Of a DNA stretch of 10,113 nt, positions 6,903-10,113 are shown one piece after another; position 1 is the stretch's first letter, and every line of letters begins with the position of its first letter. Both the position numbers and the translations under genes were made by a program. The stretch is from positions 1 through 10,113 of the forward strand of contig MERZ01000348.1 of the NCBI GenBank assembly GCA_001770785.1, read 5' to 3'. The notes below the pieces were generated by a model that saw only the letters and a list, made by a program, of their open reading frames with translations, did no database searches and was not told where the DNA came from. The DNA comes from Burkholderiales bacterium RIFCSPHIGHO2_12_FULL_61_11. Its GTDB lineage: Bacteria; Pseudomonadota; Gammaproteobacteria; Burkholderiales; Burkholderiaceae_C.

Positions 6903-7535
6903 CTATCCGCGAAGGAGCGGAAACAGCTTGCCCAGGCCCCCGGCCATCACTTCAACCGCCAGCGCTGCCAGAATCAGGCCCATCAAACGGGTCATGACAT
7001 TGATGCCGGTTTTCCCGAGCACGCGGGAAATCGGTTCGGCCAGCGAAAAACACAGCGCCGTCGCCAGGCCAATCACCACGCCGTAACCCACCAGCGTGCC
7101 GAGCTGGAAAAACGTCTTCGCTTTTTCAGCGTAAATCACCACCGTGGACATGGTGGCCGGCCCGGTGAGCAGCGGAATGGTCAGCGGCACCACGGCAATG
7201 CTCGCGCCCATGGCCGCCTTTTCCGCGCCGTCTTCGAGTTCGTGTGTGTTGGGCTTGGCCTCGGCCGGCTGGGCATTAAGCATGTTCATGGAACTGATCA
7301 GCAACAGCATGCCGCCACCGACCTGGAAACTCGCCAGAGAAATGTTGAAGAACGCCAGAATATGCAGCCCCATCAAGGCGCTGGTGGCAATCACCACAAA
7401 CGCGCTGAACGAGGCAACGACGATGGTGCGCCGCCGCTGCGCCTTTGAAAAATCCTGCGTGTAGTGGATAAAGAAAGGCACGATCGCCAGCGGGTTGACG
7501 ATGGCCAGCAGCGTGACAAGGGGTTTGAAATCCAT
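6903..7535 (-). CDS. MarC family integral membrane protein (UPF0056)
   Basis: Inner-membrane protein of 210 residues in the MarC/UPF0056 family; members usually have six membrane helices and no firmly established substrate. Key stretches are LLAIVNPLAIVPFFIHYT near the N-terminus (the NP-x-x-x-x-P-F motif), FQVGGGMLLLISSMNML near 70-86, the hydrophilic loop AEAKPNTHELED, then VVPLTIPLLTGPATMSTVVI near 115-134 and the repeat-like GINVMTRLMGLILAALAVE near 178-196. The length is usual for the family. ATG 7535 is preceded by a weak purine-rich GAAAGAAC. The TAG stop is only six bases from the palindromic element, so the gene converges with the lipid operon. Relatives are often mislabelled as antibiotic-resistance proteins; no such role is shown. 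Confidence 0.9.
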   Translation of the reverse strand: MDFKPLVTLLAIVNPLAIVPFFIHYTQDFSKAQRRRTIVVASFSAFVVIATSALMGLHILAFFNISLASFQVGGGMLLLISSMNMLNAQPAEAKPNTHELEDGAEKAAMGASIAVVPLTIPLLTGPATMSTVVIYAEKAKTFFQLGTLVGYGVVIGLATALCFSLAEPISRVLGKTGINVMTRLMGLILAALAVEVMAGGLGKLFPLLRG

Positions 7536-7793
7536 GGAAGTTCTTTCGCGGGTCGTTCGTCAAATGGAGGGTTTAACGGCGGCGGGCAAGGGCGGCATTT
7601 GACCTGGGTTTGACCAGTATCGGCGCAAAGTGGTCATCCGCGCAAAGTTTGATCCTGGCCCCTGATTCAAGCCTCGGACGGGGAGCCAGAAAAAATCGAA
7701 TGGGAACAGGCAATTGCGAAAAATCTCAGGTGCTTTTTTCTTGCCTGCGCAGTTTCTGTATTGGGGCTGCATCAGTTCGGCGGTCACCCCCCT
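7536..7793. other. Gene-free spacer between marC-like gene and ssb-like gene
   Basis: No reading frame here looks coding. The stretch includes the short direct repeats described separately (7598-7648). It also has A/T-rich runs near 7690-7740 (AAAAAATC, CTTTTTTCTTG) that contrast with the flanking GC-rich genes. The run of T around 7733-7739 is not preceded by a clear stem, so I do not call a terminator. The region should contain the promoter of the marC-like gene. Confidence 0.45.
7598..7648. repeat. Tandem-spaced short direct repeats, possible IS21-type end
   Basis: ATCGGCGCAAAGT at 7619-7631 recurs as ATCCGCGCAAAGT at 7636-7648 (12 of 13 identical, period 17). TTTGACC occurs twice at 7598-7604 and 7609-7615. 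TGACCA (7611-7616) and TGGTCA (7631-7636) form a small inverted pair around the first repeat. Ends of IS21-family elements carry several short repeats with a similar GGTCA...TTTGCGCCGAT flavour on the opposite strand, so this could be the tip of a lost element. No istA or istB coding remains, so the family call is only a guess from form. Confidence 0.3.
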
Positions 7794-8105
7794 TTACTCG
7801 TCGGCCCTGTGTGGGTGCACCGCAAGGACACGTTGCGCAACCAAATCAAGCGCCGGTCGTGCATTGCCTTGCTTGTCGGTCCAGACCTTTGGCGTGAGGC
7901 TTCCCGCTATTGCCACAGCGTCACCCTCGCGCATTTCAAGCAATGCTGCCATGGGGGCGTCATCGAACGTGATCACGTTGACCATCAGCGTCTCACCATC
8001 GCTGGTTTGGGCCCGGACCTTGGCGACCACAAACGGCTTGTCGCCCTTGCCCATGCGCCGCTCCGGGTCACCAAACACCTTACCTGCTATCAATCCATCA
8101 ATCAT
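7794..8105 (-). CDS. Small single-stranded DNA-binding (OB-fold) protein, plasmid/ICE type
   Basis: Encodes 103 residues with the look of a short SSB found on plasmids, integrative elements and phages. The start MIDGLIAGKVFGDPERR and then KPFVVAKVRA, ETLMVNVITF, LLEMREGDAVAIAGSLTPKV and ALDLVAQRVLAVH follow the five-strand OB-fold pattern. It lacks the long acidic C-terminal tail of housekeeping SSB (about 160-180 residues, ending DDDIPF), so it may bind ssDNA without recruiting the usual partner proteins. ATG 8105 has TGGAG seven bases upstream; the adjoining GTG codon is an alternative, and an open frame continues further upstream but with non-family sequence. It stands alone, divergent from a decayed mlaF, with no conjugation or replication gene nearby, which suggests a stranded piece of a mobile element. 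Confidence 0.75.
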   Translation of the reverse strand: MIDGLIAGKVFGDPERRMGKGDKPFVVAKVRAQTSDGETLMVNVITFDDAPMAALLEMREGDAVAIAGSLTPKVWTDKQGNARPALDLVAQRVLAVHPHRADE

Positions 8106-8211
8106 CACGGCTCCACTTGGTAAATGGCAATCATGCCATCCGTCCGCTGCCCGCAATACGGAGCATCGAAAGACTTTCAGGGTTTGGGCAACTTCCTGTC
8201 CTGGATCCCCT

Positions 8212-8496
8212 ATCATTTGAGTGCCGGGCGGGATGGCCAAGCGCATTGGAATAGCGCGTGCGATTGCACTGGACCCGGAATGGCTGATGTACGACGAACC
8301 TTTTTCCGGTCTCGAATCGATCCGATTTCGCTTCGTGTCGCGGGAAGAGGTACGCAAAAGCACCGATCCGCTGGTGTTCCAGTATGTGAATGAACGCCCG
8401 AATGGCCCGGTGTGGTTTCATTACCCGGCCGTCGCTATTGATGAAGATTTTGGTATCTCCAGCCATTCCAAACCAGCGCCTGGTGTTTCCCGATGA
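8212..8496 (+). pseudogene. Decayed, internally deleted mlaF (lipid ABC transporter ATPase)
   Basis: An open stretch of about 91 codons from 8221 reads [20 protein letters not shown] then [13 protein letters not shown], the ABC signature and Walker B of MlaF. It jumps straight to [20 protein letters not shown] and [10 protein letters not shown], the typical betaproteobacterial MlaF C-terminus, which ends at about 8430. The segment that should lie between, with the D-loop end and the catalytic His of the H-loop (about 50 residues), is missing. So is the whole N-terminal half with Walker A. Just before, TTGAGTGCCGGGCGG (8217-8231) looks like the Leu-Ser-Gly-Gly codons with a one-base shift. The remaining ORF then runs on in unrelated sequence to 8496. 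It cannot bind or hydrolyse ATP. It is not a copy of the intact mlaF in this window, whose signature and tail differ. Confidence 0.72.
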
Positions 8497-8811
8497 GTTG
8501 GGACAAAGCGTCAAATTAGTCGATTCGGGGGCCTTGTGCCGATCCCTGAATGAGCGCCCGGCTTTGTCGGTCAAGGTTGCTGGACATGGGCGATCGAAGC
8601 GCTGGGCCTGGTCACTGGAGCATCGGCAGAGCCGGTCAATTTTTGGCCTGGCCCAACACCCCGGCGCGGTGGCTCCCACCCACCCCGCGCGTGGCCTCTC
8701 CCCAAGTTAGGGATGGACGGGTTGTAACAATACGCATACGATGTGCTCCTTTGTATTTATCGCCCCCGTGTTGCTTGAACGGGAAAGAGTCATAAATGTG
8801 GGTGGACATTA
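8497..8811. other. Intergenic stretch between mlaF remnant and AT-rich gene
   Basis: About 315 bases with no gene I can support. The reading frames crossing it resemble no family. Composition changes from GC-rich to AT-richer after about 8720, which probably marks the left edge of the foreign segment that carries the next gene. No palindromic terminator or tRNA-like attachment site is visible. Confidence 0.4.
8714..8742 (+). promoter_or_regulatory. Possible sigma-70 promoter of the HEPN-like gene
   Basis: TGGACG (8714-8719) and TACGAT (8737-8742) each match four of six consensus bases and are separated by 17 bp, the ideal spacing. They lie about 70 bp before the ATG at 8812 and near the change to AT-rich DNA. 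Matches at this level are common by chance. Confidence 0.22.
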
Positions 8812-9903
8812 ATGAAATTCTGCTATTCGCCGCAAAGATCTAGTAACTCACGAACGCAATACTATTTTGACCTAGAAGGTCAGAGGCTAGTGGTCGTGTA
8901 CAGGCAAGGAATAGAAGGTTTTGAAAGGAAAGGCGGCGAGTACGTCGATACCTTTATAGTACGAGAAGAAAAATGCTACGATATTGACCTCCGTTCATTA
9001 GCAAATGGCCTACCTAAAACACCGATCAACTTCGTTGTGGAATGCTTTATCGATGCTGACTCGGTCGTCAACCTTAAACTTCTAAAGCAATACGGTGCAG
9101 ATGAGAATGACGATTTTGCAATAACATTTCCTTCTTGGAATACCATTTCAGTCAGCGGATACGACTACGAAATCGACAAGACGACTTCCTTAACCAAATT
9201 TGAAGAACTGGTCGCTGTCTGGCGCATACAGCTAAGCGAAATATTGGCACAAACTTATAACGTGTGCTGGAATTTAAACGAAGAATATAAAAAACTTGCT
9301 AGCCAATCGCCCCCCGTTGGATCGCTAATCTCCATACGCTCACTTAAAACCTCGACGCTTCAGAACACAATCCTGTATGTTGAGGCTGTTGCAAATTTTC
9401 TTGTTTCGATCGCTATCGCCGTTAACGTCCAGTTAGAAGGAGCTCCTCTGAAAAAAACAGAGCTAACCGAGAATGAAACTGCAGAATTGTTAGAAAAAAA
9501 ATATATGGCGCTTGAAAAAAAGCTCGTCTACGCCATTGACAGAATTAATGCCATTTCAGGCATAACGTCAAAAATCGACAAGAACAGTCCCAATTGGGCC
9601 AGGTTCAAAAAACTAAAAAAAATCAGAGACTCATTAACTCACGTAAAAATTAAAAATGTTTCCGAATACGTTGGCCCAACGTTGGATAGTATGCTGTCAT
9701 CGGTACGAATTTTGGATGAAAATTTACTTGATTGTGTCAGAGTTGTACATTGGCTAAACTGTTTTATGGACGATTTTTTCGGTTCGTTAGTCACTAAACA
9801 GTCGTCCTTTGCACGATCATTCAACGACACGGTGGCATTACTTTTGATTGAACTAGGTTCTTCAATTAACGGCACCACAGTCGAGGAAGTACTCAGTAAA
9901 TAG
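8812..9903 (+). CDS. Hypothetical protein with HEPN-like R-x4-H motif, foreign composition
   Basis: A 363-residue protein I do not recognise as a named family. Residues 1 to about 120 look beta-rich (TQYYFDLEGQRLVVVYRQGI, FVVECFIDADSVVNLKLL). Residues from about 125 onward look mostly helical, with LEKKYMALEKKLVYAIDRI near 225 as a possible coiled coil. At 272-277 stands RDSLTH inside WARFKKLKKIRDSLTHVKIK. This R-x4-H arrangement at the end of a helix, with an acidic residue after the Arg, is the active-site motif of many HEPN ribonucleases, found in toxin-antitoxin, abortive-infection and CRISPR-linked proteins. No signal peptide or membrane helix is evident. GGTGGA lies seven bases before ATG 8812. 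The gene is far richer in A and T than all others here (several A7-A8 runs), a sign of horizontal transfer. No antitoxin partner is seen. The ORF is solid; the HEPN call is tentative. Confidence 0.8.
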   Translation: MKFCYSPQRSSNSRTQYYFDLEGQRLVVVYRQGIEGFERKGGEYVDTFIVREEKCYDIDLRSLANGLPKTPINFVVECFIDADSVVNLKLLKQYGADENDDFAITFPSWNTISVSGYDYEIDKTTSLTKFEELVAVWRIQLSEILAQTYNVCWNLNEEYKKLASQSPPVGSLISIRSLKTSTLQNTILYVEAVANFLVSIAIAVNVQLEGAPLKKTELTENETAELLEKKYMALEKKLVYAIDRINAISGITSKIDKNSPNWARFKKLKKIRDSLTHVKIKNVSEYVGPTLDSMLSSVRILDENLLDCVRVVHWLNCFMDDFFGSLVTKQSSFARSFNDTVALLLIELGSSINGTTVEEVLSK

Positions 9904-10113
9904 GGAGTAGAACAGGGCGAAATCTTTGCTGTCGATGGCGAAGTGCGTTCCTCGAGTCGATTCCTGTCTCTCAAAGCAGGGGAAGGATAGCGATCCATTG
10001 CCCAGAATCGCCTAAGTTTGGGAGCCAACTGGAACTCGAACCTGCGCAGGATTGCGTTCCCGAAAAAGCAGTCAGGGCAGGACGATAACGCGCCTATATT
10101 CATCGGTTGCTCG
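9904..10113. other. Right-edge region, no gene supported
   Basis: The 210 bases after the AT-rich gene return to higher GC. After the TAG stop the same frame continues open for 29 codons (EQGEIFAVDGEVRSSSRFLS in part) to another TAG, and the opposite strand also has an open frame. Neither shows a start with a ribosome site nor a known motif. I see no terminator hairpin. The composition break at about 9900 may mark the right edge of the acquired segment. Confidence 0.4.

Follow-up and report, generated by a model that had tools for sequence, protein, structure and literature searches.

We analyzed a stretch of 10,113 nucleotides from Burkholderiales bacterium RIFCSPHIGHO2_12_FULL_61_11 (contig MERZ01000348.1, hereafter the window), where a forward-strand open reading frame (ORF) at 8812-9903 encodes a 363-residue candidate HEPN ribonuclease. 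With moderate confidence, we interpret the product as a stand-alone HEPN ribonuclease that is likely off until its N-terminal domain senses a phage signal, when RNA cleavage would halt growth ahead of phage multiplication. This interpretation builds on the invariant R272-x4-H277 pair and E191, the rarity of the family, the deviant composition of the gene, its position in a cargo slot, and the single-ORF cassette that carries a relative in an array with Hachiman genes. In the mechanism that we infer, the C-terminal domains would dimerise into a composite RNase site, and the N-terminal beta-domain would keep the RNase off before infection and respond to a phage-derived signal upon infection. Once activated, the protein would cleave the RNA of the cell, so that growth ends before the phage can multiply. 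By analogy with tested systems, such a protein would likely be a one-gene suicide switch against phages.

The original prediction, made from the sequence of the window, had noticed a HEPN-type motif, RDSLTH at residues 272-277, which we read at DNA positions 9625-9642. The HEPN survey (PMC3710099) describes the superfamily by an Rx4-6H motif that ends helix 3 and has N, D or H directly after the arginine, by an insert that separates helices 2 and 3, and by an acidic residue of helix 2 that frequently belongs to Ex3[KR]. We looked for these features in an alignment of nine sequences, which includes neither the fragment P0009 nor P0001, the entry of the window itself. Among its 49 invariant positions are both R272 and H277, kept in 9/9 sequences; H277 is the only invariant histidine out of two, and R272 and R176 are the only invariant arginines out of 15. 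The motif is RDxLTH in eight sequences and RNSITH in the relative from Oceanospirillales bacterium strain Hp36 (locus L004), with D directly after R272 in 8/9 and N in 1/9. E191 is also invariant (9/9) and lies within the helix 172-205; the same column holds E in five bridging proteins that were added to the profile in the comparisons below. Every feature of the survey is present except the K/R of Ex3[KR], which is typical but not universal in HEPN domains and is here an invariant N195 (ExxxN). Judged from the invariance of H277 and R272 among the nine aligned sequences, the RDSLTH motif is more than a chance occurrence.

The predicted structural model agrees with the two-part protein that had been proposed, since strands (residues 2-59, 75-80 and 86-94) are followed by helices at 129-163, 172-205, 234-249, 260-276 and 302-326. 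In this model the predicted four-helix bundle has the motif terminating helix 3 and an insert separating helix 2 from helix 3, an arrangement expected of a HEPN domain. HepT is the first match in both structural lists, with scores only slightly above those of designed and receptor-like helical bundles. We also compared the profile of the C-terminal domain with 14 HepT sequences (18 of 30 HepT loci were named, four of them too short) and with 42 ApeA sequences (40 of 120 listed proteins, out of 993 found, plus two loci). Neither direct comparison was significant (P = 0.9 and P = 0.17, respectively), and shuffles scored higher in both; in each case the motif formed the best single segment, with both its R and its H aligned to their counterparts. 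Five weak profile matches all align an R[DN]xxxH with R272/H277 (G010, RDRLTH; G148, RDRIIH; G846, RNNVTH; G1417, RNNLTH; G1218, RDSLIH), which is not independent evidence, because resemblance to the family is how they were found. When the profile was joined with the five bridging proteins, it scored 25.4 over 48 columns against ApeA (P = 0.016) and at most 21.9 in 99 column shuffles, whereas it reached 11.5 against HepT, where shuffles score up to 16.3 (each joint run comprised 100 shuffles, one of which yielded no score). One weak match (L061) also resembles HEPN_Apea below the cut-off (E = 0.0017).

These data bear on a further explanation, in which the protein is not a working HEPN enzyme but a helical protein that binds nucleic acid or serves as a scaffold, its RDSLTH being there by coincidence or having lost its catalytic function. 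Such a protein could account for the lack of any family model at cut-off, for the non-significant comparisons without bridging proteins and for the designed and receptor-like bundles that score near HepT. It is nevertheless improbable, given that the invariant R and H, the polar residue after R, the invariant E of helix 2 and the motif ending helix 3 fit HEPN, that HepT tops both structural lists and that the joint profile exceeds 99/99 shuffles against ApeA. The HEPN-type reading of the original prediction is thus supported by both the predicted bundle and the conservation of Arg272 and His277.

The searches also returned other HEPN-like proteins. Three related-looking proteins (L003:1354-2028, L059:670-1491 and L061:116-685) share R[DN]xxTHPK, have no Pfam family above cut-off and possibly represent another unmodelled HEPN family. 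At L007:6967-8663, the 243-residue HEPN-like protein of G148 (RDRIIH, no Pfam family) lies beside a 295-residue TIR-like protein on the same strand, which has a PADLOC effector row (E = 1e-5). The two genes are a candidate two-gene defence pair, and a similar protein is found at L062:1348-2094 (G1218).

The family is small. A protein search returned P0001 and six further proteins, all with E <= 1e-55; a second, alignment-based search, which scored only the 7991 candidates with most shared words, added P0008 and P0009, and a scan of genome contigs added the L004 relative (42% identity), for a total of nine relatives of the window protein. Whole-genome profile searches, in samples that overlap one another, identified clear members in just two genomes, that of the window and that of L004. 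The window's own genome and one weak match were detected among 101 genomes of relatives, 398 of the phylum and 399 of the family, the own genome only among 87 of the genus, and the L004 genome with two weak matches among 390 of its order. As had been anticipated, the window protein is unrecognised: no family reached the cut-off in Pfam (window protein, P0002-P0008 and L004 protein), NCBIfam (window protein, P0003-P0008 and L004 protein) or PADLOC (window protein only), the fragment P0009 being left out of all these scans. Its sole row is Pfam CdiA_helical (E = 0.1, 13 residues, below cut-off), and the best sub-threshold Pfam row among members pairs P0002 with Gln-synt_N_2 (E = 5.7e-4); such rows are untrustworthy. 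The HEPN families Cthe_2314, LA2681 and MAE_28990 gave no Pfam row in any scanned member, and no profile-profile comparison with them was made. A sequence search of the PDB with the window protein returned one chance row (E = 1.5), and tblastn one chance-level row each in plasmids and in phages; tblastn found nothing for the L004 protein or P0008 in plasmids, nor for P0007 in phages, and the viral contigs scanned held no relative.

Only the L004 relative has a readable genomic context. Its ORF is framed by GTTACAT (1233) and the pairing ATGTAAC (2418), 12 bases past the stop codon, and the preceding cassette by GTTATGC (219) and GCATAAC (1148). Because shuffled flanks yield such pairs in 5% and 8% of cases, these ends alone are modest evidence. 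The attC site between the two cassettes folds on the bottom strand (z = -6.1), and a scan of L004 identified eight sites, four strong and four weaker, compared to none and one weak site in two shuffles. The strong ones are the attC between the two cassettes and, on the same strand, three further sites where genes end: 7068-7124 (HamB), 7617-7685 (a weakly MtlR-like gene) and 8230-8334 (following a UPF0167 gene). In addition, the genome has integron integrase rows of 286.7 and 273.8 bits, above the cut-off of 265. With an attC site, matching ends and an integrase in the genome, the L004 homologue is an integron cassette. The array also contains HamA and HamB, the Hachiman pair, and is not a housekeeping setting; a review reports that chromosomal integrons are reservoirs of defence systems (PMC12409362).

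Since the L004 cassette encloses only one ORF, the homologue itself, the protein probably works alone. The original prediction of a single-gene system is thus supported for this relative, while for the window we can say that no partner occurs among the ten proteins scanned. The proposed defence role is plausible but indirect, as it derives from this one array with Hachiman and from analogy. In the same locus, an IS110-family transposase gene lies downstream of the homologue's cassette (L004:2896-3942), and the homologue's own attC looks incomplete (L004 2418-2520, fold z = -0.4). The array may hold a second HEPN: the product of a neighbouring cassette (L004:7139-7639) weakly resembles MtlR and DUF4145 and contains RNEFSH. 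The family profile did not pick it up.

A cassette-borne relative also fits another explanation, in which the HEPN ribonuclease acts as a toxin or in stress. As a mobile cassette gene, it would slow growth or stabilise its carrier without responding specifically to phage. The best structural match is HepT, a toxin that inhibits growth and loses its toxicity when R or H is changed (PMC4621449), and for HEPN proteins borne on integrons the survey proposes a role in inducing dormancy under stress (PMC3710099). However, no antitoxin or nucleotidyltransferase partner is found among the ten window proteins, the L004 cassette has one ORF, and an uncontrolled free toxin could hardly be retained. We therefore regard this explanation as possible though rather unlikely. 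HepT (SO_3166), as described in HEPN-MNT pairs, has about 132 residues, lacks an N-domain and always has its MNT partner; its sequence profile has no significant match to that of the window protein. No adjacent MNT gene was found among the ten window proteins, the stretch after 10113 being scanned in part.

To place the favoured interpretation of a phage-triggered HEPN ribonuclease, we compared the protein with other known systems. Judged by analogy, the closest tested analogue is Tha. Tha-1/Tha-2 are tail-activated HEPN anti-phage proteins of Staphylococcus prophages (PMC11087260); Tha has 301 residues, its expression alone does not slow growth, and it is triggered by a phage tail protein. 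Tha is carried by prophages together with a control gene, and both its trigger and its RNase activity have been demonstrated, whereas the window protein is a candidate in both respects. Moreover, in a comparison by description only, the N-terminus of Tha is a low-confidence prediction (predicted local distance difference test score < 50), while that of the window protein is ordered and beta-rich. ApeA likewise combines a beta-rich N-domain with a C-terminal HEPN, and its RNYLTH is in register with RDSLTH. However, the ApeA proteins compared have about 460 residues, about 300 of them in the N-domain according to the survey, and the window N-domain of about 128 residues does not align with it. 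The window protein has no Pfam row for ApeA_NTD1 or HEPN_Apea, P0003 reaches 17.2 bits against a HEPN_Apea cut-off of 24.4, and the N-domain finds its best segment within the C-terminal portion of ApeA (P = 0.2). These results ruled out membership in ApeA. By size, the closest described architecture is MAE_18760-NTD1 on the MAE_18760 HEPN, a beta-rich N-domain of about 121 residues, likened by the description in the survey only (PMC3710099). Vpc_cass2 (PDB 3jrt), an integron cassette HEPN, is a HEPN domain alone of 166 residues; it has no sequence match to the window protein and is not among the 50 VIA-align matches listed.

The N-domain of the predicted model consists of six strands (Table 1), with a short helix (60-65) after the fourth. 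In a Foldseek search of the PDB, PriB/SSB proteins account for 18 of the best 50 of 555 rows (E up to 10), the best with E = 0.013 and probability 0.89, and named single-strand-binding proteins account for 10 of the 50 rows listed in the viral search. Because TM-scores across the PriB/SSB rows are low (<= 0.28), root-mean-square deviations high (11.5-15.1) and neither PriB nor SSB is among the 50 VIA-align matches listed, we treat this likeness as a lead only. The N-domain of the first model also matched trypanosome MRP1/MRP2 (probability 0.69/0.66, deviation about 4.5 over 67-68 columns). As a lead from the model, an OB-like N-domain would fit a role in sensing single-stranded nucleic acid, although a sensing role of the N-terminus is a guess. 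OB-folds and HEPN domains are present in one system in CoCoNuT (PMC11090510); our literature keyword searches turned up no description of an OB-like domain fused to a HEPN RNase. We consider it rather unlikely that the protein is a new one-protein immune system, a direct fusion of a HEPN RNase with an OB-like domain that binds single-stranded nucleic acid. Such a system would detect single-stranded DNA or RNA of an infecting phage, turn on RNA cleavage and spread among bacteria as mobile cargo, which in one lineage takes the form of an integron cassette next to others for defence.

Also in the window, the gene bears the marks of accessory DNA. It is sharply richer in A/T than its neighbours, as had been noted: its G+C content is 0.408 (0.423 at third codon positions), compared to 0.575-0.657 (0.611-0.828) in the eight other genes measured. 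Its start codon matches that of P0003, P0004 and P0008. A TAG ends the ORF, yet the family profile match extends 4-7 codons further (window 9901-9924). The C-terminus is at least six residues longer in most relatives, so that the window copy has a slightly shorter tail; tail length varies among relatives, and P0006 stops at about the same point. The SSB-like gene and the decayed gene that had been seen beside the ORF are both there (Table 1), the latter as a leftover of an mlaF-like ABC (ATP-binding cassette) gene, of which whole copies exist in the congeneric genome G047 (L094:1335-2177) and in the own genome (contig C174, L016:956-1951).

Table 1. Features of the candidate HEPN gene and its surroundings (window coordinates)
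Feature	Position	Strand	Basis
SSB-like domain ORF, context	7794..8363	-	PF00436, E 1.6e-7
Remnant of mlaF-like ABC gene, context	8220..8496	+	Family scan and comparison with G047
36-bp repeat with short inverted repeat, ending exactly at left edge of slot	8748..8783		Repeat search, G047 comparison
Cargo slot, interval without counterpart in G047	8784..10019		Comparison with G047
Candidate HEPN ribonuclease ORF, 363 residues	8812..9903	+	ORF call, start codons of relatives, composition
Beta-rich N-domain, residues 1-128 (strands 2-9, 13-20, 25-40, 43-59, 75-80, 86-94)	8812..9195	+	Predicted model
Core helix 1 of predicted HEPN bundle, residues 129-163	9196..9300	+	Predicted model
Core helix 2, residues 172-205, with invariant E191 (9382-9384) and N195	9325..9426	+	Model and alignment
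Insert between helices 2 and 3, residues 206-259	9427..9588	+	Predicted model
Core helix 3, residues 260-277, terminating in R272-x4-H277 (9625-9642)	9589..9642	+	Model and alignment
Core helix 4, residues 302-326	9715..9789	+	Predicted model

We examined the locus in 10 of the 61 genus genomes with a marC match. In all 10, marC is followed by a gene that we take to be DsbA-like and the candidate HEPN gene is absent; the distance between the two is 0.2-1.1 kb in nine, 4.1 kb in G047 and 3.0 kb in the window. G047 also has the SSB-like gene and shares 90-93% DNA identity in pieces up to position 8783 and again from 10020. Because two different ORFs occupy the interval in G047, the site holds alternative cargo; these ORFs (L094:2462-3567) encode a 145-residue protein with repeated DVYGN-type units and a 202-residue protein. 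The 36-bp repeat at the left edge has one more clear copy in the own genome (contig C347, L015:2526-2561, 92%), terminating at the same base, and G047 contains a diverged copy (L094, about 2431-2464); the repeat may be a recombination or terminator element. A search of plasmids with the repeat region (8700-8811) gave no match. Around the gene we found seven short two-copy repeat families and four inverted pairs, and no RNA family or tRNA nearby. The window gene was rejected as an integron cassette: it has no matching end pair and no hairpin beyond the level of shuffles, and the best integrase row of its genome is 116 bits against the cut-off of 265, typical of ordinary recombinases.

The other scanned window proteins are ordinary (DUF72, GMC oxidoreductase, an MlaE-MlaF-MlaD-auxiliary set, MarC, the SSB-like protein and the ABC fragment). 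An assembly gap of Ns closes the window, and past it the contig has a broken short-chain dehydrogenase gene and further ORFs that we take to resemble a DsbA-type isomerase, dienelactone hydrolase, CorA and HemB. Ordinary neighbours would be expected if the gene encoded an RNA-processing or regulatory protein of the host's normal physiology. However, the deviant composition, the presence in 1/87 genus genomes and the nine relatives in all point to an accessory gene, and we judge this explanation very improbable.

HEPN RNases are recurrent effectors of phage defence, and the switch of the single-gene ones is rarely known. The family described here is so rare, with nine relatives, that none of the family models scanned covers it; the active site is nonetheless preserved in full. 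The ordered N-domain offers a concrete handle on the possible trigger, and the cassette-borne relative in L004 is a self-contained unit that is transferable into a laboratory strain.
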